Assembly (NCBI RefSeq): GCF_023638055.1
Contig: NZ_JAKRVY010000005.1
Span: forward strand, 62,001-126,000
From: Natranaeroarchaeum aerophilus
GTDB lineage: Archaea; Halobacteriota; Halobacteria; Halobacteriales; Natronoarchaeaceae
Direction: 5' to 3'
DNA length: 64,000 bases
Notes under the pieces: generated by a model
Database searches by the model: none
Told to the model about the DNA's origin: nothing
Seen by the model: the letters and a program-made list of their open reading frames with translations, nothing else
In this document: positions 37-21,544 of the stretch, one piece after another
How positions within the stretch are numbered: the stretch's first letter is position 1
How the letters are laid out: each line of letters begins with the position of its first letter
Translations under genes and position numbers: made by a program

Positions 37-48
37 GCTATAACAAAG
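37..48 (+). promoter_or_regulatory. recurrent upstream motif, copy 1
   Basis: GCTATAACAAAG, 77 bp before the flippase start. The identical 12-mer occurs at 4328 and 14154, and near-identical copies precede other genes of the polysaccharide region. It may be a dedicated promoter element or an operator; its role is inferred only from position and recurrence. Confidence 0.55.
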
Positions 49-124
49 CCCGTGAACGGCCCCGCTATCATAGAGCCGATCGGACGATCTCCAGCCGGCA
101 GTCGCCGAACAGAACGACAGCTCA

Positions 125-1603
125 ATGTCCCTTTCACAACGCATCTCCCGTGGTCTGAAAGCCACGCTGCTCTCACGAATCGTTCGGTCAGTCGCCAACG
201 CCGCGATGATTATCGTCCTCGCGCGCTACTTGCTCGGCCCTGATGGGTACGGGCTGTTGTACTTCGCGCTATCTGTCATCGGCGTCATCGCGATCTTCGC
301 CTCGGCCGGACTCCCGAAGTCGACGGCGCGCTACGTCAACACGTATCTCGAAGACGATCCCTCGCAGATCCCGCTGATACTCCGACAGTCGGCGACGTAT
401 ATTCTCGTGCTCTCCGGAATAGTCGGGGTAGGCCTGTTCATCGGGAACGACTGGCTTGCGACGATCCTCAACGAACCTGCGCTGGCTCCGTTCCTGCTCG
501 TCGGGATCGCCTACGTACTCTTTCGGGCATTCAACCAGTACTGTATACTCGCGTTTCAGGGATTCAACCGCGTCGACTGGAGCGCAGTGATGGGAATCAT
601 CGAGAGCGTCGCCCGGCTGGTGTGTGTCATTACGCTGGTCGTCCTCGGGTACGGCGTGATCGGTGCGTTTACGGGATATATACTCGGCTACGTTGCGTCC
701 GTGGCGTTCGGAGTCGTCGGACTGTACGTCTTCTTTTACAGCCAGTTCGACGGGGCACCACAGCTCGAGCCTGGGCTTTCACGCCGGATACTGGAATACA
801 GCATTCCGTTGACCGCCACCCGCGGTGCGAACGTCCTCGACAAGCGTGTCGATACTGTACTCGTCGGCGTACTCCTGAGCGCGACCGCGGTGAGCTTCTA
901 CACGATCGCGAGGCAGGTCGCCGAGTTCGCGGCGATTCCGGTCCGATCGCTCGGCTTTACCATCTCGCCGGCGCTTGGCGAACAGAAGTTCGCCGACGAG
1001 CCGGACGTCGCGGCCCGGATCTACGAGGAGTCCTTTCGGCACGTCTCCATGCTGTACATCCCCGGTGTGGTCGGGCTGGTACTGGTTGCGGACCCGCTGA
1101 TCCGGTACGTCGTTGGTGCGGAGTATCTCGGGGCAGTTCCAGTCCTGCAGGTCCTCAGCCTCTTCGTCCTCGTGAACGCGATCAACCTCATCACGACGGA
1201 CAGCCTCGACTATCTGGGGCGGGCGCGGATCCGTGCCATCGCGAAAGGCGTTACCGCCATTGCGAACTTCTTTTTGAACCTGCTGTTGCTCCCCCTGATC
1301 GGCGTTGTCGGGGCGGCGCTCGCGACGGTGATCACCTTCACGATGTACACGGCGATCAACGTGTACGTAATCCATCGTGAACTGGGCCTCGATTTCGTCT
1401 CGCTCGGCAGGAGCGCCGTCGTCGTAACCGGCATCTCACTGGTCATGGGAACGGTCGTCTTGCTTTCGCTCCCGTACGTTTCGGGATTGCTCACTCTCGC
1501 CGTCACGATCGCAGCTGGCGTGGCTATCTGGGCGATTCTCTCCGTTGCTGTCGGCCTGATCGATCCCGACGAGGCCGTCGCGTTTCTGGCAGAACGGAAC
1601 TGA
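125..1603 (+). CDS. polysaccharide flippase (Wzx/MATE-like, oligosaccharide translocase)
   Basis: A 492-residue, very hydrophobic protein with about 12-14 predicted membrane helices spread over its whole length. The N-terminus has the short amphipathic stretch then 'SRIVRSVANAAMIIVLARYL' style first helix typical of the RfbX/Wzx group of the MOP exporter superfamily. By family knowledge it moves lipid-linked oligosaccharide across the cytoplasmic membrane for assembly into exopolysaccharide or glycoprotein glycans. It heads the polysaccharide gene region and has a copy of the recurrent GCTATAACAAAG motif upstream. Length fits the family (roughly 450-510 aa). Which glycan it carries cannot be told. 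Confidence 0.9.
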   Translation: MSLSQRISRGLKATLLSRIVRSVANAAMIIVLARYLLGPDGYGLLYFALSVIGVIAIFASAGLPKSTARYVNTYLEDDPSQIPLILRQSATYILVLSGIVGVGLFIGNDWLATILNEPALAPFLLVGIAYVLFRAFNQYCILAFQGFNRVDWSAVMGIIESVARLVCVITLVVLGYGVIGAFTGYILGYVASVAFGVVGLYVFFYSQFDGAPQLEPGLSRRILEYSIPLTATRGANVLDKRVDTVLVGVLLSATAVSFYTIARQVAEFAAIPVRSLGFTISPALGEQKFADEPDVAARIYEESFRHVSMLYIPGVVGLVLVADPLIRYVVGAEYLGAVPVLQVLSLFVLVNAINLITTDSLDYLGRARIRAIAKGVTAIANFFLNLLLLPLIGVVGAALATVITFTMYTAINVYVIHRELGLDFVSLGRSAVVVTGISLVMGTVVLLSLPYVSGLLTLAVTIAAGVAIWAILSVAVGLIDPDEAVAFLAERN

Positions 1604-2110
1604 ACGGCGACTGTGCCGATCCGGAGGAGGACACGAACTGTATCGATCTCGTGCGCCCCTCCGAAGCGCTCTCTGTCCGACGCGATCAGCCGATACTGGC
1701 GGCACCTGAGTCGGATGCTCACGCACCTACTGTAGTAGCATCTAACTGATAATCCGGTCCACTTTGTGTTCGTGTGCCGCCGGTAAGCACATCCTTACGG
1801 GCTATTTACGGCATCTGAACGCAGATTCAGGCGAATCCGTATTCTCCCCGCTGTTCGGACTGTAGGGTCAGGAAATATCCTCTTTCCACCTGCTTCCCGT
1901 GGTAAATACTGGCATATTTTCGGCAGCGCGGTACTGGTTGCGGCTCAGGTATCTCCCCTGCGAAGTGAGCGTATCTCACCTACTTGCATATGTAACTGGT
2001 ATGTATTCATAAATATGGCTCGCTATCCGTAGTTAATCATCCTAATACTGGTACTACTACTGCTCAAATCGGTCAAAACCGTTATTATAGTAGGTTGTTC
2101 CTACCGGGAC
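1604..2110. other. intergenic region without a gene
   Basis: About 500 bp between the flippase and the Tat-exported protein. It becomes AT-rich from about 1720 onward. Short open frames here have arginine-rich shadow composition and no acidic bias, so I call no gene. The last 30 bp contain the promoter of the next gene. Confidence 0.6.
2082..2089 (+). promoter_or_regulatory. TATA element for the beta-helix protein gene
   Basis: TTATTATA centred about 26 bp before the ATG at 2111, the spacing expected of a leaderless or nearly leaderless haloarchaeal transcript. Confidence 0.55.
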
Positions 2111-3952: not shown

Positions 3953-4030
3953 TGCAATGAACGGAACTACCACCCTTTCGACGGGACCGGCTCTCGATCT
4001 CCGTATGGATCTTGCGGGGGGTGCCTGATC

Positions 4031-4240: not shown

Positions 4241-4327
4241 CGATCCGCGCCCTGTGGTTCGTTTGTCTCCAGCGGCTGAGACCAGTGTGCGGGACCGCGG
4301 TAACCCTGGCTTACCCGTCGAAACACG

Positions 4328-4339
4328 GCTATAACAAAG
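4328..4339 (+). promoter_or_regulatory. recurrent upstream motif, copy 2
   Basis: GCTATAACAAAG, identical to the copy at 37. It lies 51 bp before a 28-codon leader frame and 134 bp before the acyltransferase start. Confidence 0.55.
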
Positions 4340-4389
4340 CGACGCCGTCGCCTCTCGCCGATAACGCCTCGGCGGGCGTGTGACCACGC

Positions 4390-4476
4390 ATGGATCTACT
4401 CGACACTCACGCGACGAATGACAAGCGGCGAACGGCATCGAACCGGACTCCACGGCGATTCGAGGTGACCGAATGA
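4390..4476 (+). CDS. possible 28-residue leader peptide
   Basis: An ATG-initiated frame of 28 codons whose TGA stop overlaps the ATG of the acyltransferase (ATGA). The peptide begins [14 protein letters not shown] and is not notably acidic, so it may be a translational leader rather than a functional protein, or simply chance. Position between the recurrent motif and the overlapped start is the only support. Confidence 0.25.
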
Positions 4477-5051
4477 CCGGCACACAGTACGGCCCGGGTG
4501 TCGACGTTCAGCCCAACGTCACGATCGGGACACCCGGCGAGGAGGGCGACCCACCCGCTATCGGTGCTGACGCGACGATCCGATCCGGGACGATCATCTA
4601 CTCGGACGTCCAGATCGGCGACCGGTTCCAGACCGGTCACAACGCAGTCGTGAGAGAGCGAACGGCAATCGGCGACGACGTGACAGTCGGCACGAACGCC
4701 GTAATCGACGGGAAAACGACGATCGGCTCCTCGGTCAGCCTGCAAACTGGGGTCTACGTCCCGCCGTACACTGATATCGGCGATCAGGTATTTCTCGGTC
4801 CCCACGCCGTCTGTACGAACGATCCGTACCCGGTTCGGCGTGACGACGGGCTTGTTGGGCCGACGCTCGAAGATCACGTCTCGGTCGGTGCGAACGCCGT
4901 GCTGCTCCCCGGCGTCACGATCGGCGAGGGCTCCTTTGTCGCCGCGGGTGCGGTCGTCACGGAGGATGTCCCGCCCGAGACGCTGGCGGTGGGTGCGCCC
5001 GCCGTTCACAGAGAGCTACCGGAGCCGCTCGACGGAGGGAATCTGATCTAA
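4473..5051 (+). CDS. left-handed beta-helix sugar-nucleotide acyltransferase (WbpD/WlbB-like)
   Basis: A 192-residue protein made of hexapeptide repeats ([LIV]-G-x4) along most of its length, for example [29 protein letters not shown] and [18 protein letters not shown]. The C-terminal signature [21 protein letters not shown] is typical of the N-acetyltransferases that act on 3-amino sugar nucleotides. Size and the internal insertion with PYPVRRDDG fit WbpD/WlbB, which acetylates UDP-GlcNAc(3NH2)A. The stop overlaps the start of the dehydrogenase gene (TAATG), so the two are co-translated. The aminotransferase and oxidoreductase needed for that substrate lie at 16.9-19.0 kb. The exact substrate is inferred. 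Confidence 0.85.
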
Positions 5052-6427
5052 TGAGCCGAACAGTGTCTGGGCTGCTGTACGATCCCGGTCGCGAGGACGC
5101 CCCGACCGAGGCACAGCGCCACGCGTTCCGGTCCGGCGAGATACCGGTCGCCGTCTACGGGCTCGGCAAGATGGGTCTCCCGCTCGCGGGCGTGTACGCC
5201 GAGACCTGCGGGAACGTGATCGGTGCGGATATCGATGAGGACGTCGTCGCAGGGATCAACGACGGGAAGAGCCATATCAAGCGCGAGCCCGGTCTCGACG
5301 AACTCGTGACGGAACTCGTCGGGGAGGACGCACTGCGTGCGGTTGCGGATCCGGCGGATGCGGCCCGCGAGGCCACGGTTCACGTCATTATCATCCCGAC
5401 GCTCCTGACCGACGAGCACGTCCCCGACCTCTCGATCCTGCGGAGCGTCGTCGACGACGTGGCGACCGGGCTGTCCCCGGGGGATCTCGTCGTTGTCGAA
5501 TCGACGGTTCCGCCCCGGACCTGCTCGGAGATGGTCTACCCCCGGCTGCAGCGAGAGAGCGGGCTGGCAGCTGGCGAGTTCGGCCTCGCCTTCTGCCCGG
5601 AACGCACAGCGAGCGGGCGGGCGCTCGAAGACATCCGGGGAGCGTACCCGAAAGTCGTCGGTGGGATCGACACGGAGAGTACGCGCGTTGCCGGACTCAT
5701 CTACGATGCGATCAACGAGCAGGGGACGATTCCGGTCTCCGATACGACCACTGCGGAGGCGGTCAAGGTGTTCGAGGGCGTCTACCGGGACGTCAACATC
5801 GCGCTGGCGAACGAACTCGCCCGGATGACGGACGAACTGGAGATCGACGTCCGCGAGGCGATCGAGGTCGCCAACACCCAGCCGTACTGTGATATCCACG
5901 ATCCCGGACCAGGCGTCGGCGGGCACTGCATCCCCTACTATCCGTACTTCCTGATCGAGGGGCTAGAGACCAGAAACCGTCTGCTCAGGACCGCCCGCGA
6001 GATCAACGACGAGATGCCCGCGTTCACAGTGAGAAAGCTCGCCGAGGAGCTGGCGAGCGACGGGAAGAACGTGGCAGAGGCCCGGGTCGCTGTGCTCGGG
6101 CTCACCTACCGTCCCGGCGTCGAAGAGACTCGCGCAAGCCCGGCGATGCCGATCACCAACCGACTCGCAGACCTCGGTGCGGACGTCCTGACGATCGATC
6201 CGATGCTCGATGACACGAGTGAGTTCGCTGGCGAACAGGTCCCCCTCGAAACGCTGTACGACCACGACCTCGATGCCGTGGTTCTCGTCACCCCTCACGA
6301 TGAGTTCGAGGCGATCGACTGGACCGCCTTCGAGCGCCCACTCGTCGTGGTCGATGGCCACGCCGCGCTCGACCTCGCGGGGACCGATCACCGCCACTAC
6401 GCGATCGGTACGGGACGCCCACGATGA
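5051..6427 (+). CDS. nucleotide-sugar dehydrogenase (UDP-ManNAc/UDP-GlcNAc 6-dehydrogenase type)
   Basis: 458 residues. The N-terminal Rossmann motif is VAVYGLGKMGLPLA (about 33-46). The catalytic set of the UDP-glucose/GDP-mannose dehydrogenase family is intact: Lys239 in TAEAVKVFEGVYRD, Cys293 in GVGGHCIPYYPYF, and the CPER segment. The C-terminal domain carries GLTYRPGVEETRASPA. It oxidises the C6 hydroxyl of a UDP-N-acetylhexosamine to the uronic acid using two NAD+. It is translationally coupled to the acyltransferase. A second copy at 15501-16895 lacks these residues, so this is probably the only active dehydrogenase in the window. WecC versus WbpA substrate choice cannot be settled by eye. 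Confidence 0.9.
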   Translation: MSRTVSGLLYDPGREDAPTEAQRHAFRSGEIPVAVYGLGKMGLPLAGVYAETCGNVIGADIDEDVVAGINDGKSHIKREPGLDELVTELVGEDALRAVADPADAAREATVHVIIIPTLLTDEHVPDLSILRSVVDDVATGLSPGDLVVVESTVPPRTCSEMVYPRLQRESGLAAGEFGLAFCPERTASGRALEDIRGAYPKVVGGIDTESTRVAGLIYDAINEQGTIPVSDTTTAEAVKVFEGVYRDVNIALANELARMTDELEIDVREAIEVANTQPYCDIHDPGPGVGGHCIPYYPYFLIEGLETRNRLLRTAREINDEMPAFTVRKLAEELASDGKNVAEARVAVLGLTYRPGVEETRASPAMPITNRLADLGADVLTIDPMLDDTSEFAGEQVPLETLYDHDLDAVVLVTPHDEFEAIDWTAFERPLVVVDGHAALDLAGTDHRHYAIGTGRPR

Positions 6428-6440
6428 GGGGACGACCGAG

Positions 6441-7346
6441 ATGATCGACGATCACCCCTTCGCGCTGTGTCTCACGCACGACGTGGACCGCCCGTACAAG
6501 ACGTATCAGTCGGCCTACTACGCGCTCGCCGATCGGGACCCCGGACAGCTGAAAAGCCTCCTCCCGGGCCGGAACCCGTACTGGCAGTTCGAGCGGCTAA
6601 TGGATCTGGAAGATTCACTCGGCGTTCGTTCCGCCTTCTACTTCCTCGACGAGCAACACCTGCTGCGGGACCGTCCCGTCCGCGACTGGTTCGAGCCCGA
6701 CAACTGGATGCGATATATGGGCCGGTACTCGCTCGACGACCCGGCGATCGTCGACGTGATCCACGAACTCGATGAGGGTGGATGGGAGGTCGGACTGCAC
6801 GGCTCCTACGAGTCATACGACGACCGCGAGCGGCTTCGCCGGGAGAAAGCTCGCGTCGAATCGGTGCTCGGCAAGCCGGTTCGGGGCGGTCGCCAGCACT
6901 ATCTCAACCTTGACGTCCCCGAGACGTGGCGACAGCAGCGATCGATCGGTCTCCAGTACGATACCAGTCTCGGCTCCAGTCAAACCTACGGCTTCCAGTA
7001 CGGCGACTCGATCCAGCGCCCCTTCGACGACGAGTTCGTCGTCTTCCCGCTGACGATCATGGAGGTTGCCCTCCCGGACCCTTCAGAGCGCTTCGAGGAG
7101 GCGTGGGCCGAGTGCAAGCGGGTCCTCACGGAAGCAGCTGACCGCGGCGCGGTGATGACGATTCTGTGGCATCCGCGATACTTCAGCCGACGGGATTTCC
7201 CCGGCTGGGGTGCGCTCTATCGGCGGATCATCGAGGCAGCACTGGATCGCGGGGCGTGGGTCGGCCCCCCTGGCGAGCTGTACGACCAGCTCGACCACCC
7301 CACCGATGACACGTCCGAACCGGCGGTCTCCGACCCCGCCGAGTAG
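6441..7346 (+). CDS. NodB-type polysaccharide deacetylase family protein
   Basis: The start is taken at the ATG at 6441 (301 aa), because upstream codons in the same frame overlap the dehydrogenase and read as shadow. It begins MIDDHPFALCLTHDVDRPY. The HDVD holds the aspartates of the NodB metal/base motif, EVGLHGSYES gives the metal-ligand histidine region, and LWHPRYF near the C-terminus gives the late motif. Such enzymes remove acetyl groups from N- or O-acetylated sugars or act on related carbohydrate amides. No signal peptide is visible, so it probably acts on cytoplasmic or lipid-linked precursors. It follows the dehydrogenase by 13 bp in the same operon. Confidence 0.8.
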   Translation: MIDDHPFALCLTHDVDRPYKTYQSAYYALADRDPGQLKSLLPGRNPYWQFERLMDLEDSLGVRSAFYFLDEQHLLRDRPVRDWFEPDNWMRYMGRYSLDDPAIVDVIHELDEGGWEVGLHGSYESYDDRERLRREKARVESVLGKPVRGGRQHYLNLDVPETWRQQRSIGLQYDTSLGSSQTYGFQYGDSIQRPFDDEFVVFPLTIMEVALPDPSERFEEAWAECKRVLTEAADRGAVMTILWHPRYFSRRDFPGWGALYRRIIEAALDRGAWVGPPGELYDQLDHPTDDTSEPAVSDPAE

Positions 7347-7369: not shown

Positions 7370-7381
7370 GCGATAACAAAG
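7370..7381 (+). promoter_or_regulatory. recurrent upstream motif, copy 3
   Basis: GCGATAACAAAG, one mismatch to the copies at 37, 4328 and 14154. It lies 36 bp before the ATG of the FemAB/GNAT-like gene. Confidence 0.5.
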
Positions 7382-7416
7382 GATAGCTGTGGTTGATCAT
7401 AGACAGAATAAGCAGT

Positions 7417-8421
7417 ATGCAAATTGAGGAGCTTACTCTCGATGACTGGAGTGGTGCCCTTCCCAAGGAGGGGATCGAAGTATTTCACACGCCGAGCGCG
7501 CTGTCGGTGGTTGCCGACCACGCGCCGGGAGAGCTACGACTGTACGGCGGTTACAAGGGAGAGCAGCCGGTTGGGCTCTTCCCCGTGGTCGTGCAGGATC
7601 GTTCGGTCGGCCGCGCCGTTTTCTCTCCCCCGCCGGGAATGGGGATCCCGCGGCTCGGTCCGATCGTCATGCCGACCAGCCCGAAACAGCGAAAACGGGA
7701 GCGGGTCAACCGCCGCTTTACCGAGGCGGTGCTGGAGGAGCTCGCGGTCGAGGACTCGCTGACGCTGTTTCGATCGATCTGTACCGCAGCGTACACCGAT
7801 CCGCGACCCTACCGGTGGGCCGACATGGACGTCGAGACCAATTTCACCTACGTACTCGACCTCGAGGACCGCTCGCCCGAGGACGTCCGACGCTCGTTTA
7901 GCAAGAGTCTCCGCCGGGAAATAGGCGACGGCGAAGAGCTGGACCTTCGAATCGAGCGCGAAGGCGTCGAGGGTGCCCGCTCGGTGTACGACGCGACCCG
8001 ACGACGCTACGAGGAGCAAGACCGGGCCTTTTCGCTCGAGTGGCCGTACGTCCGTGACCTCGTAACTCGACTCGAAGACCGAGCGCGCGTCTACGTTGCC
8101 CGGACGCCCGAGGGACGATTTCTCGCCGGAATCACCGTATTGTACTCGAACGACGCGGGCTACTTCTGGCAGGGCGGGACGCGAACGACCTACGAGAACG
8201 TCGAGATCAACAGCCTGCTTCACTGGCACGTTATCCGCGACATCATCGAGGACCCCCCGATCGATTCGGTCACCGGCTACGATCTGATGGGGGCCAACAC
8301 CGAGCGACTCTGCCAGTACAAGAGCAAGTTCGGCGCGGAACTCGTTCCCTACTACGTCACGGAGTCTTCGGGGGCGGGAATGGAGGTGGCCAAACGCGCC
8401 TACCGGATGGTGGCAAAGTGA
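7417..8421 (+). CDS. FemAB/GNAT-fold acyl- or aminoacyl-transferase-like protein
   Basis: The ATG at 7417 is preferred (334 aa) over a TTG eight codons upstream. The N-terminal half resembles a first GNAT-like lobe (LYGGYKGEQPVGLFPVVVQD), and the C-terminal half carries VYVARTPEGRFLAGITVLYSNDAGYFWQGG, a typical acetyl-CoA-fold strand pair of the FemAB / lipid II:glycine transferase-like superfamily. In archaea, which have no murein, such proteins sit in polysaccharide clusters and may attach an acyl or amino acid group to a sugar. Its stop is 4 bp before the next gene, indicating one transcript with the glycosyltransferase. Confidence 0.75.
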   Translation: MQIEELTLDDWSGALPKEGIEVFHTPSALSVVADHAPGELRLYGGYKGEQPVGLFPVVVQDRSVGRAVFSPPPGMGIPRLGPIVMPTSPKQRKRERVNRRFTEAVLEELAVEDSLTLFRSICTAAYTDPRPYRWADMDVETNFTYVLDLEDRSPEDVRRSFSKSLRREIGDGEELDLRIEREGVEGARSVYDATRRRYEEQDRAFSLEWPYVRDLVTRLEDRARVYVARTPEGRFLAGITVLYSNDAGYFWQGGTRTTYENVEINSLLHWHVIRDIIEDPPIDSVTGYDLMGANTERLCQYKSKFGAELVPYYVTESSGAGMEVAKRAYRMVAK

Positions 8422-8425
8422 GTCA

Positions 8426-9445
8426 ATGAGGCACAGTATGAGTCGACACGACGAGGTCGGGGTCGTTCCGACAACCGAGGAGGACAGCGAGCCGTCGGGA
8501 CGGGCGGATCTCTCGGTATTGAATCTGGTGACGACTGCGGAGGCCCGCTTTTTCAAGCAACAGGTGTCGGTCCTGGAGGATCTGGGTGTCTCTTCGACGA
8601 CTGTCGCAGTGCCGGACGAACGCGTCACCAGGGAGGGAGCGCTCGCCGGTCGTTCGGCGGTCGATTACTTCCGATTCCTTCCCCGGGCGATCAGGGAATC
8701 GTTTGGCGAGTACGATCTGGTCCACGCGAACTACGGCCTCACTGCGCCCGCAGCGGTGCTCCAGCCGAATCTGCCAGTGGTTATTTCGCTGTGGGGATCG
8801 GATCTGTACGGCCGGTTCGGCCCACTGAGCAAGCTCTGTGCTCGACTGGCCGATGCGACGATCGTCATGTCGGATGGGATGGCCACGGAGCTGGGCGGTA
8901 CTCCGTACGTCATCCCGCACGGAATCGACCTGGATCGGTTCCAGCCTGCCGATCAGCAGGCGGCTCAGGAAGACCTTGGCTGGGATCCGGGGCGAAAACA
9001 CGTTCTCTTCCCGTACGCAAAAGGCAAGTCGGTGAAAAACGCGCCACTGGCCGAGCGCGTCGTCGCCGCGGCGCGAGAACGGGTCGGCGAACCGATCGAG
9101 CTTCAGTTCGTGACAGGGGTTCCCCACGAGCGGATGTCGGTGTATATGAACGCGGCGGACGCGCTGCTGTTAACGTCCGATCGCGAGGGGTCGCCCAACT
9201 CGGTGAAGGAGGCGATGGCCTGTAACCTGCCAGTCATCGCGACGGATGTCGGCGACGTTCGCCAGCGACTGCGCGGCGTTCAGCACTCGTTCGTCGCTCA
9301 CGACGATGCCGACCTCGTCGACTGTCTCGTTTCCGTTCTCGACGCCGATACCGACTCGAACGGTCGGGCGGTGATCGCGGAACTGCGGATCGAGCAAATG
9401 GGCGAGCGACTGCTCTCCGTGTACCGTGAGGTTCTCGATGGGTGA
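8426..9445 (+). CDS. GT4-family glycosyltransferase
   Basis: 339 residues; the start may be the ATG at 8426 or the one four codons later. Features of GT-B fold family 4 enzymes are present: the acceptor-side phrase DLVHANYGLTAPAAVL, VISLWGSDLYG in the middle, PYVIPHGIDLDRFQP at the domain junction and the C-terminal donor-binding E-x7-E element SDREGSPNSVKEAMACNLPVIATDVGDV. It transfers a sugar from an NDP-sugar to a growing lipid-linked oligosaccharide at the inner membrane face. The next gene begins within or just after its stop codon. Confidence 0.88.
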   Translation: MRHSMSRHDEVGVVPTTEEDSEPSGRADLSVLNLVTTAEARFFKQQVSVLEDLGVSSTTVAVPDERVTREGALAGRSAVDYFRFLPRAIRESFGEYDLVHANYGLTAPAAVLQPNLPVVISLWGSDLYGRFGPLSKLCARLADATIVMSDGMATELGGTPYVIPHGIDLDRFQPADQQAAQEDLGWDPGRKHVLFPYAKGKSVKNAPLAERVVAAARERVGEPIELQFVTGVPHERMSVYMNAADALLLTSDREGSPNSVKEAMACNLPVIATDVGDVRQRLRGVQHSFVAHDDADLVDCLVSVLDADTDSNGRAVIAELRIEQMGERLLSVYREVLDG

Positions 9446-9450
9446 TCCCA

Positions 9451-11325: not shown

Positions 11326-11337
11326 TCTATAACAATT
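11326..11337 (+). promoter_or_regulatory. recurrent upstream motif, copy 4
   Basis: TCTATAACAATT, a variant sharing the CTATAACAA core. It is 24 bp before the epimerase ATG, close enough to serve as its TATA element. Confidence 0.45.
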
Positions 11338-11360: not shown

Positions 11361-12341
11361 ATGAACGGATCACAGGAGACACCGACCGGCACAACTCCGA
11401 CAACAGGGGTCGACACGACAACGTCGATGATCACCGACCGGACCGTCCTCGTCACCGGCGGGGCTGGATTCATCGGCGGCCACATTGCGGCCAGACTGGT
11501 AGCGGACAACGACGTCCGGGTCCTCGATAATGTCTCGACCGGCGAGATTGATCGGGTCCCGGACGAGGTCGAGTTCGTTCAGGGCGATCTCCGTGACGGC
11601 TCGGCGCTCGACTGGGCGACCGATGGCGTCGACGTGATCTTCCACCAGGCGGGACTGGTGAGCGTCGACGAGTCGATCGAGGAGCCGGTGCGCAGCCACC
11701 GCACGAACGCAACCGCGACCGTCGAACTGCTCGAACGGGCGCGTCAGGAGGACGCACGGATCGTCGTCGCCTCCAGCTGTGCTATCTACGGCGACCCCGA
11801 ACACACACCGATCGCGGAGGACGCCCCGAAGCGTCCAAAGTCGCCGTACGCAATCGACAAGCTCGCGATCGATCAGTATACCAGGACGTTCGCCGATCTG
11901 TACGATCTGGACGCCGTCCCGCTGCGCTACTTCAACGTCTACGGCCCAGGACAGACCGGCGGCGAGTACAGCGGTGTCATCACTGCGTTCCTCGAACAGG
12001 CTCGCACCGGCGGTCCCATCACCGTCCACGGAGACGGTGAACAGACCCGTGATTTCGTCCACGTTTCGGACGTCGTCGACGCCAATCTCGCTGCGGCGAC
12101 GACCGACCATACCGGGCAGGCGTACAACATCGGGACGGGGACGAGCACGTCTATCCGTGAACTCGCCGAACTCGTCCGTGACGTGATCGGATCGCGCTCC
12201 GAAATCGTCCACCGCGACGGCAGACAGGGCGATGTCCGGCATAGCGAAGCTGATCTCGCGCGCGCTCGTGAACTCCTCGATTATAAGCCATCAGTTTCGC
12301 TCGAAGACGGGCTCGCCGATCTCGTCGCAGGCAGGCGATGA
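11361..12341 (+). CDS. NAD-dependent sugar-nucleotide epimerase/dehydratase (GalE-like)
   Basis: 326 residues, or 304 if translation starts at the internal ATG at 11427 just before the conserved core. Short-chain dehydrogenase features are clear: GGAGFIGGHIA (nucleotide binding), DLRD, the catalytic Ser/Tyr/Lys set in ASSCAIYG and SPYAIDKLAIDQY, then RYFNVYGPGQ. It most resembles UDP-glucose 4-epimerase type enzymes and probably supplies UDP-Gal(NAc) or a related sugar. The extra N-terminal 22 residues are T/S-rich and unlike the family, so the later start deserves consideration. Confidence 0.87.
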   Translation: MNGSQETPTGTTPTTGVDTTTSMITDRTVLVTGGAGFIGGHIAARLVADNDVRVLDNVSTGEIDRVPDEVEFVQGDLRDGSALDWATDGVDVIFHQAGLVSVDESIEEPVRSHRTNATATVELLERARQEDARIVVASSCAIYGDPEHTPIAEDAPKRPKSPYAIDKLAIDQYTRTFADLYDLDAVPLRYFNVYGPGQTGGEYSGVITAFLEQARTGGPITVHGDGEQTRDFVHVSDVVDANLAAATTDHTGQAYNIGTGTSTSIRELAELVRDVIGSRSEIVHRDGRQGDVRHSEADLARARELLDYKPSVSLEDGLADLVAGRR

Positions 12342-12720: not shown

Positions 12721-12730
12721 GTCGTGTCAC

Positions 12731-12810
12731 GGAAGGGGTGGGATTCGAACCACACGAAGCCGTAAGGCCCCCACCGAGATGGTGGTGCTCTGCCACTGAG
12801 CTACCCTTCC
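12731..12810 (-). tRNA. tRNA-like sequence, probably degenerate
   Basis: Read on the minus strand, the 80-nt sequence has a perfect 7-bp acceptor stem (GGAAGGG with CCCTTCC), a good D arm (GCTC-AGTGGCA-GAGC) and the T-loop consensus GGTTCGAATCC. The anticodon arm does not fold canonically: CCACC pairs with GGTGG around only five bases (ATCTC). The variable region is about 10 nt too long, and the T stem has only four pairs unless the loop is enlarged. I therefore cannot assign an anticodon. It may be a tRNA pseudogene, an odd intron-bearing tRNA, or a tRNA-derived element linked to the adjacent tandem repeats, which share its 3' end. Confidence 0.45.
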
Positions 12811-12872
12811 AGTATGTCGCTGCGACATGGCCCCATGCCGCGGCCGCTATCAGATCTGTTGGCCGATCACTG

Positions 12873-12884
12873 TATTGTTATTCT
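12873..12884 (-). promoter_or_regulatory. weak copy of the recurrent motif
   Basis: AGAATAACAATA on the minus strand, sharing only the ATAACAA core, 63 bp upstream of the tRNA-like sequence. May be fortuitous. Confidence 0.2.
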
Positions 12885-12918: not shown

Positions 12919-13917
12919 TCAGTCGACCTCCCGCTCTTCTAGCTCTTCGTTTTCTACCATGTCGAAGATCATTGCGAGGACGAGCATCAGCGTGCCAAGC
13001 AACACGACTGGGAGCGAACTCTCGCGGTCGTGCTCGCGACGACGAACCACCCCGACCACGTTCCGAAGCCCCCTGAAAATTCCCACGAAGCTCGCCGCCG
13101 CACCGATCCCGTAGAGGAGGACAAGCGGGTGGAAGTCTCGTGTCAGGTACTTTACACGCAAGCGCCACAGGAAATTCGAGAGCAACATGAGCGAGACTCT
13201 CGGGATATACTCGGGGTAGGAGATGTGGCTCTCCTCGTCGGCGTATCGGCTTGGTACCGGGACGTCGGTGACTCTGAGATCGGCGGCGTTGAGCTTGACG
13301 AGCAGGTCGTTGCAGTAGCCGTAGTATTCGTACATATCGTCGATTGCGACGGTCTCCAGCGCGTGGAGCGAGATGGCGGTGTAGCCGTTCTGTGGATCGC
13401 CAATGCTCCAGTAGCCGCTTGCGATCTTTGTGAGGAAGGAGAGGATGGCGTTGCCGACGAGCCGGAACGTCGGCATTTCCTCGCGGTGTTCGGGATGTAG
13501 CAACCGGTTGCCCTTGACATATTCGGCACGCTCCTCGACGATCGGGTCGAGCAGGCGATCCAGCAGGTCGGGATCCATCTGGCCGTCGCCGCCGACGACC
13601 GTCGTGATGTCGACCTCGTCATCTCTCGCACGCTGGTAGCCGGTTTTGATCGCGCCGCCGACGCCCCGATTCACCTCGTGCTGGATCGGAACGACGTGTC
13701 GGTCGAACTGGACACCGCCGTCCGCGAGCGCCTGCTCCGTGTTTGCGTTGCGTCGGTCCGCGTGTGCCTGTATCTCTGCCCACGTTCCGTCCGTTGAGCA
13801 GTCGTCGACGGCGTACACCCGATCGACGTACTCGGGGAGTGTATCGATGACCTCGCCGACGAAGCCTTCCTCGTTGTACGCCGGGACGACGACGCCGATA
13901 CTATGCTCTCGGTACAT
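12919..13917 (-). CDS. GT2-family glycosyltransferase with C-terminal membrane helices (DPM-synthase-like)
   Basis: 332 residues. The GT-A signature is SIGVVVPAYNEEGFVGEVI at the N-terminus, VYAVDDCSTDGT follows, and the DxD-like metal site is GGDGQMD at about residue 110. The QNGYTAIS segment is typical of polyprenyl-phosphate sugar transferases. Two hydrophobic segments follow at about 255-275 and 298-315, which would anchor it in the membrane. It probably charges dolichyl phosphate with a hexose or starts a lipid-linked glycan. It is transcribed opposite to the first half of the cluster. The C-terminus ends in a run of glutamates. Confidence 0.87.
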   Translation of the reverse strand: MYREHSIGVVVPAYNEEGFVGEVIDTLPEYVDRVYAVDDCSTDGTWAEIQAHADRRNANTEQALADGGVQFDRHVVPIQHEVNRGVGGAIKTGYQRARDDEVDITTVVGGDGQMDPDLLDRLLDPIVEERAEYVKGNRLLHPEHREEMPTFRLVGNAILSFLTKIASGYWSIGDPQNGYTAISLHALETVAIDDMYEYYGYCNDLLVKLNAADLRVTDVPVPSRYADEESHISYPEYIPRVSLMLLSNFLWRLRVKYLTRDFHPLVLLYGIGAAASFVGIFRGLRNVVGVVRRREHDRESSLPVVLLGTLMLVLAMIFDMVENEELEEREVD

Positions 13918-13987: not shown

Positions 13988-13999
13988 CATTGTTATACT
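13988..13999 (-). promoter_or_regulatory. recurrent upstream motif, minus-strand variant
   Basis: AGTATAACAATG on the minus strand, 71 bp upstream of the GT2 gene start. It shares TATAACAA with the other copies. Confidence 0.35.
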
Positions 14000-14153: not shown

Positions 14154-14165
14154 GCTATAACAAAG
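14154..14165 (+). promoter_or_regulatory. recurrent upstream motif, copy 5
   Basis: GCTATAACAAAG, identical to the copies at 37 and 4328. It is 15 bp before the ATG at 14180 and 36 bp before the ATG at 14201 of the secreted CARDB protein. Confidence 0.55.
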
Positions 14166-14179: not shown

Positions 14180-15418
14180 ATGGACCGTAACGAACGAGAG
14201 ATGGATACGAACACCGCCCAATTTCTGAGAACAGCCCTGATTGTCCTCGTCTGCATCGCCTGTGTCACCGCGCTTGTCCCGCCCGGGGCTGCGGGGACGA
14301 CAGGTGACGATGATACCTACGTGGTCACTCAGGGCGACGAAGAGTTCGAGATCTCACCGGTCGGTGACGGAACCCAGACCGCAGAGGAATTCTACGACTA
14401 CCGAACGCCGGAGACCCACGACTACCCGGACTACCTCTACAGCTCGTACGGAACCACAGAGTTCCAGGAAGACGATACGAGCATCCTCATGCTCCACGAG
14501 GGCAGTGACGGACTCAGCCTCGTTCTCGTCCACGACAGAGTCGATGGGGACACACGCGGGGGATCGCTCACGATGCAGATCGACGGGTTGCCCCAGGAGG
14601 GCGAGTGGGTCGTCGAAGACGATGCCTACAGCGAGGGCCACTTCGGTGGCCCCCTCGACACGTTCGACCACGACGACACGTCGAGCCGGATCACCTGGAT
14701 CTGGACGGAAGGGAGAACTGACGGTGGCGCGTTCACGGGAGGTCTCGACGATGGTGACTGGGAGATCACGATCGACCCGTACTTCAACGAGGAGGCGGAC
14801 TACCGCTACGAGGATCCCGAGGGATATGACGGCCAGCTCGACGACTGGAAACTGATCTCCGGCGCCGGCAACTCCCACACGGGCACATCTCTGCCAAGCC
14901 TCGACGAGCCGATCACGATCACTCCAGGTGGCGTGCCGGAGCTTTCTGTCTCCAGCCTCACTGCGTTCCCGTCGACAGTTGCACCCGGTGAAACGGTCGA
15001 GATCCGGTCCACTGTCGCGAACGTCGGGAACGCCGACGGCGAGTTTGATGTCGAGTTCACTGCCGAGGGTGAGGTGATCGAAACAAAGACGGTTTCACTC
15101 GGGGCGGGTGAGAGCACGCAGTTGACGACCGAGGTGACGTTCGAGGAGCCCGGAAGCTACGAACTGGGTGTCGCCGGGACGACTACGTCCGTGCAGGTAC
15201 TCGACGAGCCCTCGAACGGGACCGGCAGCGAGAACGGGAACGAAACTACTGGTAACGAAACCAACACCAACGGAAACCAGTCCGAGGGCAACGGTGACGG
15301 AACCGGCACCCAGGGTCAGACTGGGGATGACGGACTGCATGGCTTCGGCGTCCTCGCTGGCGTCGTCGCGCTGGCGGCCCTGATCGCTGTTAGCTACGCT
15401 CGTCGGTATCAGTCGTAG
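14180..15418 (+). CDS. secreted, membrane-anchored CARDB-domain protein
   Basis: 412 residues. It has a Sec-type signal (TALIVLVCIACVTALVPPGAAG, about residues 18-39), then a domain of unknown function of about 210 residues rich in D, Y and G. A CARDB/APHP-like Ig fold follows (about 245-345: ELSVSSLTAFPSTVAPGETVEI), then a low-complexity N/G/T linker with many N-x-T sequons. A C-terminal hydrophobic helix preceded by LHGFG and followed by RR ends it. That end resembles a PGF-CTERM signal but lacks the proline, so archaeosortase processing is doubtful. Many sequons suggest it is N-glycosylated, perhaps by products of this cluster. Either 14180 or 14201 may be the start. Confidence 0.75.
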   Translation: MDRNEREMDTNTAQFLRTALIVLVCIACVTALVPPGAAGTTGDDDTYVVTQGDEEFEISPVGDGTQTAEEFYDYRTPETHDYPDYLYSSYGTTEFQEDDTSILMLHEGSDGLSLVLVHDRVDGDTRGGSLTMQIDGLPQEGEWVVEDDAYSEGHFGGPLDTFDHDDTSSRITWIWTEGRTDGGAFTGGLDDGDWEITIDPYFNEEADYRYEDPEGYDGQLDDWKLISGAGNSHTGTSLPSLDEPITITPGGVPELSVSSLTAFPSTVAPGETVEIRSTVANVGNADGEFDVEFTAEGEVIETKTVSLGAGESTQLTTEVTFEEPGSYELGVAGTTTSVQVLDEPSNGTGSENGNETTGNETNTNGNQSEGNGDGTGTQGQTGDDGLHGFGVLAGVVALAALIAVSYARRYQS

Positions 15419-15420
15419 AC

Positions 15421-16895: not shown

Positions 16896-16897
16896 CG

Positions 16898-17863
16898 CTA
16901 CTGGATGACCCGTTCACCCCCGAGCGCGACGGTTTCGATCTCGCTTGCAACCCTGAGAGCGTCCAGCCCGTCCGTTCCGGTAACGACCGGTTCGGTTCCC
17001 GTCCGGACCGCCTCGGCGAAGGCAGCGAGCTCCTTTTTTAGCGGTTCGCCGTTCTCGACAGTCGGATGCTCGACGATGTTCTCGTGTCGATAGCGAAGAT
17101 CTCCGTTCTCCTCGATGTACTCCGGCAAGGAGTGGCGATGGATCTGAATCGACCGGGAGATGTAATCGACGAACACCTGACACTCGCGGGCTGTAATCGT
17201 CAGTTCGCGGACCTTGCGCTGGGTGATCCGACTGGCCGTCAATGTCCCCAGCACATCGCCGAACTCGACCGTTGCGGTAACGTGCTGGTCGTCCGCAGTT
17301 GCACTCGCGTGTCTGACCTCTCCCTTCTCGTCGAGCAGGGACAGCAATATGTCGATATCGTGAATCATCAGGTCGAGAACAGGACTGGTTCCCATCTCCC
17401 TGTCGAGCGGCGGCCCGAGACGTCTGGCGTCGACCGCGAGCACGTCGAGATCCGGAACGATATCGACGAGCGCCTGTATCGCCGGGTTGAACCGCTCGAT
17501 ATGGCCGACCTGCAGGACGAGGTCGCGTTCGCGTGCGGACTCTATGAGCTCCTGCGCATACTCCGGCGCGTGGACGATCGGTTTCTCGACGAGCACGTGT
17601 GTCCCCTTCCTGAATGCCGCCATCGCCGTCTCGAAGTGATACTCCGTCGGGACGGCGATCGAGACGGCATCGACTCGATCGAGGAGCTTCTCGATCGAGA
17701 GTGCGGTCGTTTCGTAATCCGATGCAATACCCGTCGCGGCCTCCAGATCGGCGTCAGCAACACCGATTAGCTTCGTCGTCGGGAGTTCCTGATACACCCG
17801 CGCGTGGTGTCGTCCCATGTTGCCAACGCCGATCACGCCGACGTCGATCGTATTCGTACTCAT
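16898..17863 (-). CDS. Gfo/Idh/MocA family oxidoreductase (WbpB/WlbA-like)
   Basis: 321 residues. The Rossmann start is DVGVIGVGNMGRHHARVY, and the family hallmark EKP occurs in HVLVEKPIVHAPEYA at about residues 90-105. The second domain carries LDLMIHDIDILLSLL, the histidine pair typical of sugar dehydrogenases. WbpB/WlbA enzymes oxidise the C3 hydroxyl of UDP-N-acetylglucosaminuronate before transamination. The gene lies directly downstream of an aminotransferase and upstream of the inactive dehydrogenase homologue, all on the minus strand, matching that pathway order. Substrate is inferred from context. Confidence 0.87.
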   Translation of the reverse strand: MSTNTIDVGVIGVGNMGRHHARVYQELPTTKLIGVADADLEAATGIASDYETTALSIEKLLDRVDAVSIAVPTEYHFETAMAAFRKGTHVLVEKPIVHAPEYAQELIESARERDLVLQVGHIERFNPAIQALVDIVPDLDVLAVDARRLGPPLDREMGTSPVLDLMIHDIDILLSLLDEKGEVRHASATADDQHVTATVEFGDVLGTLTASRITQRKVRELTITARECQVFVDYISRSIQIHRHSLPEYIEENGDLRYRHENIVEHPTVENGEPLKKELAAFAEAVRTGTEPVVTGTDGLDALRVASEIETVALGGERVIQ

Positions 17864-17881
17864 GATTGTGGTATCAAACTG

Positions 17882-18970
17882 TTATCCGTAGTAGGACTGC
17901 ACAACTGTGGTAATGGATCGCACGTCATCGGTCGAGAGTCCGGGGTGAACGGGCAGGGCCAGCACTTCCTCGGCGGCCTGCTCGGCAACTGGTGCGTCCA
18001 CATCGATGTGGTCGTAGGCTGGCTGCTCGTGGATCGGTGTCGGATAGTAGACACCGGTACCGATCCCCGCATCGTCGAGATAGGTCCTGAGAGAGTCCCG
18101 ATTCTTGCATCGAATCGTATACTGGTGATATGCGTGTCTCGCGTACGCGGGCTCGAACGGCGTCGCGACCGCGGGCTGGCTCCGGAGTCGGTCGGTCAGC
18201 ATTCGGGCGTTCTCCCGCCGCTTTGCGACGTACTCGGGCAACTTCTCGAGCTGAACGAGCCCGATTGCCGCCCCGATGCTCGTCATCCGGAAGTTGTGCC
18301 CGAGTTCGACGTGTTCGTAGGTATCGCTCCGCCCGTGATTGACGAACTGGGCGGCACGCTCGGCGACGTCCTCCCGATCGGTCGTGATCATCCCACCTTC
18401 CCCGGTCGTCATATTCTTCGTGGGGTAAAACGAGAAACAGGCTGCGTCGCCAAACGACCCAACCCGTTCACCGCTGTAGGTGGCTCCATGGGCCTGTGCG
18501 GCGTCCTCGACGAGCAGTAGATCGTGCTCGTCCGCGAGCTCTGCCAGCGGCTCGATGTCTGCAGGCAACCCGTAGAGGTGGACGGCGAGGATCGCGTCGA
18601 TGGTCCCGCCCTGGGCGTCGAGTAGCTCTGCGACTGCGTCCGGATCGAGATTGTACGTTTCGGGATCGATGTCGGCAAAGACCGGCTCCGCTCCGGCCAG
18701 CCGAATCGCGTTTGCACTTGCCACGAACGAGAACGGCGTCGTGACGACCCGATCTCCTGGGCCAATATCAAGCGCCTCGAACGCCGCGTGCAGGGCGGTC
18801 GTCCCGTTCGAGGTTGCCACCGCGTGCTCGGCGTCGCAGTAGTCGGCGAACGCCGATTCGAACTGTCTGACGGTCGGCCCGTCGGCGACCATCCCACTGT
18901 CGATCACGTCGGCGACTCGTTCTGCCTCAACTCTGCCGAGATCGGGGTCTGCAATCGATATGTTCGCCAT
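17882..18970 (-). CDS. DegT/DnrJ/EryC1/StrS sugar aminotransferase (WbpE/WlbC-like)
   Basis: 362 residues, the usual family length. PLP-dependent aminotransferase landmarks are TSNGTTALHAAFEAL, VEDAAQAHGATY (aspartate contacting the pyridine N), and FSFYPTKNMTTGEGGMI with the Schiff-base lysine in PTKNM. HNFRMTSIGAAIGLVQLEKL and the C-terminal HPGLSTDDV complete the fold. It likely aminates the 3-keto sugar produced by the oxidoreductase encoded 18 bp downstream, using glutamate as donor. A copy of the recurrent motif lies 142 bp upstream. The product would be acetylated by the enzyme encoded at 4473. Confidence 0.9.
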   Translation of the reverse strand: MANISIADPDLGRVEAERVADVIDSGMVADGPTVRQFESAFADYCDAEHAVATSNGTTALHAAFEALDIGPGDRVVTTPFSFVASANAIRLAGAEPVFADIDPETYNLDPDAVAELLDAQGGTIDAILAVHLYGLPADIEPLAELADEHDLLLVEDAAQAHGATYSGERVGSFGDAACFSFYPTKNMTTGEGGMITTDREDVAERAAQFVNHGRSDTYEHVELGHNFRMTSIGAAIGLVQLEKLPEYVAKRRENARMLTDRLRSQPAVATPFEPAYARHAYHQYTIRCKNRDSLRTYLDDAGIGTGVYYPTPIHEQPAYDHIDVDAPVAEQAAEEVLALPVHPGLSTDDVRSITTVVQSYYG

Positions 18971-19111
18971 TACGGCACCTCACTGCACACTGGGGGTTCA
19001 GAGACCCTGCTGGTTGAACTGTCCAATACTGGGCTATTGAAAATCGATATGATGGTCTGTAGCATTGTTACTCCGGTCTCGGGAACTATGACATTGTTGC
19101 CGACCTGCTAC

Positions 19112-19123
19112 CTTTGTTATAGA
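19112..19123 (-). promoter_or_regulatory. recurrent upstream motif, copy 6
   Basis: TCTATAACAAAG on the minus strand, 142 bp upstream of the aminotransferase start. Confidence 0.5.
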
Positions 19124-19268
19124 CGGGTTGTACGTCAGGTAGCGCGTGTTTTCCCGGCAGGCGGTGGATCAGCGGGTGGCGAACTCTCCGAGCCCAATCG
19201 AGAAATCGGGTCGTCTCCCACCTGTCACGGTCAAAGACTGCATATTTTCCATCGATTCGTTTAGCCGG

Positions 19269-19280
19269 TCTGTAACAAAG
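19269..19280 (+). promoter_or_regulatory. recurrent upstream motif, copy 7
   Basis: TCTGTAACAAAG on the plus strand, 76 bp before the HTH protein gene. One mismatch to copy 6. Confidence 0.45.
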
Positions 19281-19355
19281 TAACGAATAGCTGACCTGCA
19301 ACTGTAGAGGGTCAAAAGCGCATGCGGGGGATATGACCAGTATGAGACGAAACTA

Positions 19356-19901
19356 ATGTCCAGAGCCGACAGTGACAAGTTGTCACAAGATGTGGTGTTT
19401 GATCTGCTGAGTAGTCCACGGCGTCGATTCGTGCTGTACTACCTGAACCAGGTCGACGAACCCGTAACTATCGGCGATCTCGCCGACGAGGTTGCGGCCT
19501 GGGAGAACGAAGTCGACGTCGAGGAGTTATCGAGCCAGCAGCGAAAGCGCGTCTACGTCTCCCTGTATCAGACGCACGTTCCGAAGATGGACGATGCCGG
19601 AATCATCGAGTACGACTCCGATTCCGGCGACGTTGTACTGGCTGATCAGGCAGTCGATATCAGCGCGTATCTTTCGCGAGACGAGGAAGAACAACCGTGG
19701 CAACAGTACTACCTCGCGATTGCGATCGTCGGCGGGCTCTTTTATGGTGCGGTGGCGATCGGTCTCATCGGTGGGATCTCACAGTTCGCCGCCGGGTTGC
19801 TCATTATTCTCGCGTTCGCAGTCACAGCGATCGGCCATCTGATCACCACCCAGCGACGTGGGGACGGACTGTCCTCGGAACTGATCGACAAGCGTCAGTA
19901 G
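19356..19901 (+). CDS. DUF7344-like membrane-anchored helix-turn-helix protein
   Basis: 181 residues. Residues 5-95 form a winged-helix-like domain with the phrase VVFDLLSSPRRRFVLYYL at the N-terminus, characteristic of the haloarchaeal DUF7344 group, and VYVSLYQTHVPKMDDAGIIEYD as the recognition/wing part. Two hydrophobic helices at about 120-165 (YLAIAIVGGLFYGAVAIGLI and the following one) would tether it to the membrane. Such proteins are common beside surface-glycan and secreted-protein clusters and are thought to be regulators. The upstream copy of the recurrent motif makes autoregulation conceivable, which is inference. Confidence 0.75.
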   Translation: MSRADSDKLSQDVVFDLLSSPRRRFVLYYLNQVDEPVTIGDLADEVAAWENEVDVEELSSQQRKRVYVSLYQTHVPKMDDAGIIEYDSDSGDVVLADQAVDISAYLSRDEEEQPWQQYYLAIAIVGGLFYGAVAIGLIGGISQFAAGLLIILAFAVTAIGHLITTQRRGDGLSSELIDKRQ

Positions 19902-19990
19902 CCTGTTCTCTACTCGGTACGAACTGACGAGACGGAAAAGCAGTCTGGGGCCACGTGGTTGTCAGATCGCGTGAAGTAGAAAGGAGGAGC

Positions 19991-20998
19991 TCACACGCCG
20001 TCGACGGTAATCCAGAGGTGGTCATCTGCCGTCTCGGAATCGGCGTCCTCTGGTGCATCACCCTCGTAGAGGTAGTAGTTGAGCCGGATGTTCTCGCCCG
20101 CCATGGGTGGCGAGATCGTGGTTTCCTGGGTCGCACGCTCGCCCGGCTCCGGAGTGAGCTGTAGCCGACCGAGTTCCGCCTCCTCGAGGACGGCTAACTC
20201 GTCGCCATCTTCCTCGACATGCTGGGCCTCGATGACGACGGTATACGTCGACGACTCCGTCCCGTCGCTGGTAACGCCAATGATCATTTCGGCGCTCTCA
20301 CCCGGTGGGATTGCCTCCGGATACTCTCCGGCGACGAGTTCTCCGTCATCGGTTTCAGTGAGCAGTTGTACCTCTGTCGAGCCCGCTTCCAGCTGGGGTG
20401 CAGCCAGCCCGTACGCGACCGCCCCCATCGCGAGAATGACGCTTGCCAGAAGAACGGCGTTGAGAACTCCGTCGACAGGACTACCCTCCGGGAACAGGCT
20501 GGTATCCGACGCGGCACCCGGATACTGAAACCGTTCTTCCTCGGGGAGCTGGACCCGCCGTGCGACCCCGCCGAGCATCACGACAACGATGAACACGGCC
20601 AGAGAGACAAGCACCGGGCCGGCGGAGAACCCCCACGGCGTTGTCGCCAGAACGAGACCGAACAGGGGCAAGAGTGCGACGCTCATCCCGACCGACAGGG
20701 CAAGCCGCTCGTACCACCCCGGAACACCGGTCGCGAGCAGCCCAACTGACGACTCTTCACTCCCCGGGGGCGGCCGTGTTTCGTCGGTCCCCCCCGGAAA
20801 CGCGAGCGAGACGAGCGCGTAGCCGGGCAAGACGAGGAGGATGGGTAGTCCCAGAATCGTTCGAACGACTCCGCCGATGTCGGCAACATACAGGAGCGTC
20901 CCAACCACGCCGACGTAGCCGATGACGAACGTCGCGTCCGCGGAACCAGAGGTAACTAGCTCTCGGGCCCGCTCTGTGGTGGATTTGTCCCCACTCAT
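19991..20998 (-). CDS. DUF1616-type membrane protein
   Basis: 335 residues from the ATG at 20998; a GTG four codons upstream is possible. The N-terminal 210 residues carry four to five hydrophobic helices, including the DUF1616-style LGLPILLVLPGYALVSLAFPG. The C-terminal part (about 225-335) is an extracytoplasmic beta-rich domain with repeated Ser/Thr/Glu-rich strands, compatible with an Ig-like fold (GESAEMIIGVTSDG, RATQETTISPPMAGENI). Family members are widespread next to archaeal polysaccharide and S-layer glycosylation genes; the molecular role is not known. It converges with the HTH gene. Confidence 0.75.
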   Translation of the reverse strand: MSGDKSTTERARELVTSGSADATFVIGYVGVVGTLLYVADIGGVVRTILGLPILLVLPGYALVSLAFPGGTDETRPPPGSEESSVGLLATGVPGWYERLALSVGMSVALLPLFGLVLATTPWGFSAGPVLVSLAVFIVVVMLGGVARRVQLPEEERFQYPGAASDTSLFPEGSPVDGVLNAVLLASVILAMGAVAYGLAAPQLEAGSTEVQLLTETDDGELVAGEYPEAIPPGESAEMIIGVTSDGTESSTYTVVIEAQHVEEDGDELAVLEEAELGRLQLTPEPGERATQETTISPPMAGENIRLNYYLYEGDAPEDADSETADDHLWITVDGV

Positions 20999-21544
20999 CC
21001 GCGATACCACGGCTGAGAACAGGCTACTCGGCAGATTCTACACTCCCGCTGCACTGAACTGACTTCCCACATTGATCGCTCATCTGCGATGATGGCGACA
21101 GTGGCGTTTTGTTATTCCCCTCCTATGGATGGTCCCCGGCCGGTCACAGCGCCATGGGCTGGGTGATCGTTGTTTGATCGGGACCGTTCCCGTGGGTGTC
21201 GATCCTCACTGACCGATGACCTGTCTCCTCTGGACGGAGGCGTTCGGTCACATTTCGATCGTTCGATCCAGAGCAAGTATCGTTCAGACTCTGAAAATAC
21301 CCAAAACCAACGGAGTGTACGATCAGGTATTACTGGGCTACCAGATAGTAACACAATAGCACACAGGATTATACAGTATACAATATTTTCTAACAAACAG
21401 TATAAATAGCTTATATCACGCGATCCACGAACGGATATAGTTTTACGAAGCTTAAAATATGATTTATTGGGGAATTCAGTTTTGACGATAGACATGTATT
21501 AAGCCGCCTGGCGTAGACCAAGCGATAGCAAGCGAGATCCAATT
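20999..21544. other. intergenic region with an AT-rich island
   Basis: About 545 bp. From roughly 21290 to 21500 the sequence is much richer in A+T than its surroundings and has two ACAGTATA direct repeats about 27 bp apart. A minus-strand 127-codon frame crosses it but is basic and Cys/Ser-rich, unlike halophilic proteins, so it is not called. The island probably serves as the control region of the winged-helix gene. Confidence 0.5.
21107..21118 (-). promoter_or_regulatory. weak copy of the recurrent motif
   Basis: GGAATAACAAAA on the minus strand, about 108 bp upstream of the DUF1616 gene. Only the ATAACAAA core is shared. Confidence 0.25.

Follow-up and report, generated by a model that had tools for sequence, protein, structure and literature searches.

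A start-locked sequence element before haloarchaeal surface-polysaccharide genes that probably acts as a dedicated core promoter

Introduction

What kind of signal is a short sequence that recurs, on the strand of the gene that follows, throughout the surface-polysaccharide cluster of a haloarchaeon, and what reads it? The question arises from a 64,000-nucleotide stretch of the Natranaeroarchaeum aerophilus genome, which comprises 32 contigs and 3.29 Mb (contig NZ_JAKRVY010000005.1, here C5:62001-126000; hereafter the window). The original prediction, made from this sequence alone, was that a motif, [GT]CTATAACAAAG, marks seven transcription units of a polysaccharide region, serving either as a special core promoter with 5' leaders or as an operator for a cluster-wide regulator. 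The haloarchaeal basal promoter is built from a TFB-recognition element (BRE, CGAAA), a TATA element (TTWT) and a -10 element (WW) (PMC4983044). On comparative grounds we consider the element, with a probability of about 0.62, to be a dedicated core promoter for the haloarchaeal surface-polysaccharide regulon.

Results

A motif search of the window located copies of [GT]CTATAACAAAG at every predicted position. Three of the seven main copies (37+, 4328+ and 14154+) are GCTATAACAAAG and that at 19112- is TCTATAACAAAG, while those at 7370+ and 19269+ carry one mismatch each and that at 11326+ (TCTATAACAATT) carries two. Nine matches with at most two mismatches occur in the window against 1.3 expected, a number reached by no shuffle. 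The full consensus is lost after 21.2 kb, as had been reported: past 22 kb there are only two 2-mismatch matches (22285- and 46659-), and the core, TAACAAAG, was found neither between 24 and 64 kb of the window nor in two further 20-kb stretches of this contig. Five exact copies exist genome-wide, all within C5:53734-81123 (window -8267 to 19123), a 27-kb stretch of the polysaccharide cluster, and nine of the 13 copies with at most one mismatch lie in C5:51176-81280. The invariant octamer TAACAAAG has 18 genomic copies, eight of them in the 28 kb of C5:53.7-81.3 kb and ten in the remaining 3.26 Mb; by our own arithmetic the probability of finding 8/18 copies in about 1% of the genome is of the order of 1e-12. 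All eight cluster copies are intergenic and share the strand of the gene they precede. Shuffles, a reversed-pattern control and the genome-wide counts rule out chance or base composition as the origin of the motif, and among the thousands of promoters of this genome the element is almost confined to the surface-polysaccharide cluster. The copies first reported are therefore real, and it is their form and extent that need revision: the conserved unit is TA-N5-[GT]CTA-TAACAAAG, with an invariant part shorter than the motif first described, and the cluster and its motifs start about 11 kb before the window, the element standing 5' of nearly every transcription unit.

Comparison with other genomes, in which genes were called with a home-made caller so that start codons outside the window are approximate, shows that the element is conserved. 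Of the 13 candidate sites of the cluster region, 11 have an identical 12-mer in the sister species, and where flank or spacing has altered the core is retained (GCTATAACAAAG vs GGCATAACAAAG before the flippase gene; TCTATAACAATT vs TCCATAACAAAC before the epimerase gene). In another genus GCATAACAAAG stands at the orthologous place before the DegT unit (G008), and ATGTAACAAAG before the gene for the regulator-like protein DUF7344b. The idea that only a TATAA box is conserved was rejected, as orthologous sites read GCATAACAAAG, TCTGTAACAAAG or TCAATAACAAAG, so that TAACAAAG is the part that is kept. Over 295 genomes of the order the exact 12-mer gave about 117 matches against 86 for the reversed control; these raw counts are weak alone and the gene context is decisive. 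Outside the family, 85 of 91 exact sites are intergenic and 73 lie no more than 200 bp from a gene start on their own strand, 29 of these before homologues of cluster genes; the corresponding figures for 40 reversed-pattern control sites are 25, 2 and 0. Of the 73, 28 are one orthologous PadR site in family f7 and about 10 one phosphodiesterase site, so that not all are independent. Glycan regions totalling 348 kb, picked by DUF7344 homology or neighbourhood and not by motif, contain 23 copies of TAACAAAG but the reversed octamer only once; in the 212 kb that surround ordinary TFB genes, TAACAAAG too occurs once. Of the 11 haloarchaeal loci returned by a GlmS scan of named genomes, most are paralogues that lack the element, and our literature search found nothing linking TAACAAAG to archaea. 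Neither an even density over the genome nor a lack of conservation before orthologous genes, either of which had been named as speaking against the motif, is what these scans revealed.

The anatomy of the element was examined in a logo of 55 sites picked on the core only. An A that had not been selected for occupies -10 from the core in 89% of these, after T or C and G or T; [GT]CTA follows at -4 to -1, and then TAACAAAG. Among 35 sites without an ATG near +32 from the core start, this A is kept in 32 (91%), +32 is a purine in 28 and C in none, and +21 is A or T in 24. The 12-mer of leaderless genes begins between -38 and -35, most often at -36. Taking +32 as the start site would put the core at -32 to -25, [GT]CTA at the BRE position and the extra TA at -43/-42, a location that falls where a core promoter is expected (about -37 to -25 from the inferred start). 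Generic promoters from the same loci show C-37 G-36, an A-rich stretch at -35 to -33, a T-rich stretch at -30 to -26 and AT at -11/-10, in agreement with the published pattern (PMC4983044). This generic consensus, CGAAA/TTTWW, is absent from the element, where [GT]CTA and TAACAAAG occupy the BRE and TATA positions. Orientation is strict: 40 of the 91 sites have a same-strand gene only, none has an opposite-strand gene only and 32 have both, and the logo is asymmetric, showing neither the dyad symmetry nor the free orientation of a dimeric winged-helix operator. Taken together, and at the level of sequence, these comparisons show that in several haloarchaeal families a polysaccharide regulon has a conserved element of fixed orientation that is locked to the start.

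Two helix-turn-helix proteins of the window, at 19356 and 21545, had been put forward as binders. This list misses a third, mechanistically attractive candidate, not visible within the window: a TFB gene at the head of the cluster (C5:51288-52259). Its product is a true TFB, matching PF00382, PF08271 and NF001658 (430 bits; cut-off 384), and has about 70% identity with the ubiquitous haloarchaeal TFB and 86-99% with the orthologues that occupy this place in two genera. A conserved variant site, TCTATAACTAAG or TTTATAACTAAG, lies upstream of it. In family f7 a TFB gene is divergent to a DUF7344 gene in 11 of the 12 glycan clusters examined, and in one f4 genome (G269) a TFB with Glu at position 303 adjoins DUF7344 genes. 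The cluster TFBs of families f1 and f7 are joined weakly in a tree (87/47) and have four changes in common, among them Val for Glu at position 303, which adjoins residues that contact the BRE. Glu is found here in 22 of the 24 other TFBs aligned. With its Zn ribbon and two cyclin (TFIIB) repeats, the cluster TFB is like the generic archaeal protein (PDB 1d3u/1ais); unlike it, the cluster TFBs of the two families have the Glu-to-Val change in the second-repeat recognition helix, which aligns with VTEVTVRNRY of the archaeal TBP-TFB-BRE complex 1d3u and otherwise retains the conserved TEVT.RNRY pattern. The genome has four TBP genes, all outside the cluster.

DUF7344 proteins number two in the cluster and 15 in the genome, and were detected in 267 of 290 genomes at E <1e-22. 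The protein encoded at 19356-19901 (+), which scores 115 bits against PF24035 (gathering cut-off 27.8), is modelled by AlphaFold2 as a winged helix with two C-terminal helices (pLDDT 81), and PDB matches are mostly winged-helix regulators at modest significance, the best being weak matches to ArsR-like regulators (E 0.015, probability 0.99). The C-terminal helices are hydrophobic and the protein is therefore probably anchored in the membrane; going by the model, DUF7344 proteins (window 19356-19901; L015:11019-11654) are probably membrane-anchored winged-helix regulators. DUF7344b genes of families f1, f4 and f5 have the core upstream with distinctive flanks of the (T/C)GTAACAAAGT type, which suggests autoregulation. 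The proposal of this protein as a binder has thus gained in substance, since relatives of it recur in such clusters with the core in their promoters. The other candidate, a small winged-helix protein (HVO_A0261_N; 21545-21823, +), often adjoins DUF7344 in such clusters and proved to be only a frequent neighbour. No mention of DUF7344 was found in the literature searched. A further sequence, GAAACAAT, recurs near DUF7344a genes in f4 (L324-L326, L339, L340, L343, L344), possibly as a second site or through shared ancestry.

The cluster opens, before the window, with the TFB gene followed by genes for DUF7344a, a GlmS-type transaminase, DUF354, two type I phosphodiesterases and a FemAB-like protein. 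Within the window, GCTATAACAAAG at 37-48 (+) precedes the gene for a polysaccharide flippase-like protein (125-1603, +), where the sister species has ATAACAAAG with shifted spacing. After a gene of unknown function, GCTATAACAAAG recurs at 4328-4339 (+) before a long leader and a unit encoding a hexapeptide acyltransferase, a UDP-sugar dehydrogenase and an unknown protein (4473-7346, +); this site is conserved in G006 and G008, and 5' of Hexapep orthologues in other families. The element GCGATAACAAAG at 7370-7381 (+), whose place holds GAGATAACAAAG in two species of another genus, precedes the genes for a FemAB-like GNAT protein (7393-8421), a GT4 glycosyltransferase (8426-9445) and an unknown 612-aa protein (unit 7393-11280, +). 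At 11326-11337 (+) TCTATAACAATT stands before the epimerase gene (11361-12341), whose ATG lies 35 bp past the element start, a leaderless spacing. The weak copy AGTATAACAATG at 13988-13999 (-) precedes the GT2 gene (12919-13917), and its 12-mer is unchanged in the sister species, where the upstream flank is 62% identical. A third GCTATAACAAAG at 14154-14165 (+) lies before the CARDB-domain gene (14180-15418, start possibly 14201). Between divergent units, TCTATAACAAAG at 19112-19123 (-) precedes the DegT aminotransferase, GFO/IDH/MocA oxidoreductase and UDP-sugar dehydrogenase operon (18970 down to 15501, -) and TCTGTAACAAAG at 19269-19280 (+) the DUF7344b gene. The last copy, the weak GGAATAACAAAA at 21107-21118 (-), stands before the DUF1616 gene (19991-21010); the sister species has it unchanged, and in other families TAACAAAG lies 74-101 bp upstream of DUF1616 homologues. 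Of the three weak copies originally listed, those at 13988 and 21107 thus look real, being conserved before glycosyltransferase and DUF1616 genes respectively, whereas AGAATAACAATA at 12873-12884 (-) is present 5' of tRNA-Arg(TCT) (12729-12811) and is a doubtful member. This tRNA gene lies within the polysaccharide cluster in the sister species too. Going by family names, the set of hexapeptide, DegT, GFO and dehydrogenase proteins resembles the Wbp route to diacetamido-uronic acids.

Several further features of these loci were observed. The hexapeptide, glmS-like and DegT genes have leaders of about 100-150 nt that are kept over families (window 4328-4473; L015 11734-11880; window 18970-19123), a length unusual for haloarchaea, and that of the hexapeptide gene contains a GC-rich inverted repeat. 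In one f17 genus the element lies 36 bp before the start of a 131-133-aa membrane protein of unknown function (L046, L187-L190, L192), and the f7 PadR gene (L060 and 27 other loci, e.g. L207-L245) has a Shine-Dalgarno-like GAGGGTGATC. The glycan cluster is flanked by genes for Rod-determining factor A and an AAA_23/SMC-like protein (window 22707-25466), whose homologues are also found close to clusters of this kind in another genus and in f4 (L023; L391), a neighbourhood that makes a link between cell shape and sugar coat possible.

Discussion

The location of the element relative to the inferred start, its one-way orientation and the conserved -10 AT together lead us to favour a core promoter, with long leaders at some genes, over the operator that had been offered as the other choice. 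On the gene strand at about -43 to -25, TA-N5-[GT]CTA-TAACAAAG would replace the BRE (CGAAA) and the T-rich TATA box, the octamer taking the TATA position and [GT]CTA that of the BRE; transcription would be leaderless at some genes and would yield leaders of about 100-150 nt at the glmS-like, hexapeptide and DegT units. We infer an alternative BRE/TATA that requires a dedicated reader, for which TFB, DUF7344 or both are candidates, and which would be recognised by a non-standard pre-initiation complex. The likely reader in this genus, the sister genus and the Natrialbaceae-like family f7 would be the cluster's own divergent TFB, and in most lineages the probably membrane-anchored DUF7344 proteins may control the element and feed back on their own promoters. 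One dedicated candidate factor thus probably switches the whole sugar-coat regulon. More tentative, and less likely than not, is the specific proposal that the cluster TFB, with its changed BRE-reading helix, acts like a dedicated sigma factor on TA-N5-[GT]CTA-TAACAAAG, thereby providing the regulon with a promoter class of its own, and is gated by a membrane-anchored winged-helix sensor.

A number of observations weigh against this reading of a dedicated core promoter and its readers. The signals at +32 and +21 are modest (p ~6e-4 each), with related sites not being independent. Several genomes of f4, f5 and f12 have element-bearing clusters with no TFB alongside, and the aligned TFBs of G173 and G281 all lack Val at position 303; the cluster TFB therefore cannot be the universal reader and was rejected as such for f4, f5 and f12. 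In addition, the regions between the TFB and DUF7344 genes of f7 yielded no core-like site, and DUF7344 lies within 4 kb of only 6 of the 29 glycan sites.

That last count bears equally on the operator, under which DUF7344 or another winged-helix protein would bind TA-N5-[GT]CTATAACAAAG over the TATA region and repress or gate ordinary promoters, with any TATA function being incidental. We regard this as unlikely, if far from negligible. The predicted winged-helix fold of DUF7344 is in keeping with it, as are the position of a DUF7344 gene divergent to the DegT operon with two sites in between, the core 5' of DUF7344 genes in three families, and the TA 11 bp before the core TA, pointing to two contacts separated by one helical turn. 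An operator for a dimeric winged-helix protein, however, is not usually asymmetric, one-way and fixed relative to the start, and since the element is all of these it is better explained as a core promoter than as the operator of a dimer; only a minority of glycan sites, moreover, has DUF7344 nearby. The element could also be an ordinary haloarchaeal promoter in strong form, common by ancestry or composition and needing no dedicated factor. Its AT-richness, its place at the TATA position and its use by some non-glycan genes (the f7 PadR gene and the f17 membrane protein) would fit this, yet its sequence is unlike the generic CGAAA/T-rich consensus, is near-invariant over 12 bp and is almost restricted to the cluster among thousands of promoters, which makes the explanation improbable. 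Least probable is binding by a PadR/RosR-type regulator, prompted by a 91-aa PadR/RosR-like gene (5e-19 match to hsRosR) whose ATG lies exactly 50 bp downstream of the full element in 28 f7 genomes. Outside f7 there are only paralogues of about 60-69% identity, whereas the element is order-wide, and PadR was rejected as a general reader, being restricted to f7.

As a dedicated core promoter, the element shares with the haloarchaeal basal promoter its positions relative to the start site, the -10 AT preference and leaderless use in many units, and differs in its near-invariant [GT]CTA-TAACAAAG, the extra TA about one turn upstream and its use by one functional regulon. In the multiple TFB/TBP system of haloarchaea, of which TbpD/TfbA of Halobacterium is an example (PMC2121645), the idea is likewise that TFB paralogues specify promoter classes; here a TFB paralogue with a changed BRE helix lies inside a polysaccharide cluster that has its own promoter sequence, and we found no such association of a cluster-resident TFB with its own promoter sequence in the literature searched. 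Activators of the TFB-RF1 type in Pyrococcus bind a palindrome just upstream of the BRE (PMC5937170), and so offer a parallel for a factor that compensates for a non-consensus BRE, while the element described here is asymmetric and spans BRE and TATA.

In what way haloarchaea employ their numerous TFB and TBP paralogues is a long-standing open question, approached mostly by global transcriptomics. The present locus would offer a compact case, in which one promoter sequence goes with one functional regulon, the TFB encoded in the cluster carries a single shared substitution in its DNA-reading helix, and a membrane-anchored protein is the candidate sensor; it is conserved across several families and directly testable in culture. 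The motif may also be used to predict genes of the haloarchaeal sugar coat, including those for unknown proteins and small membrane proteins.

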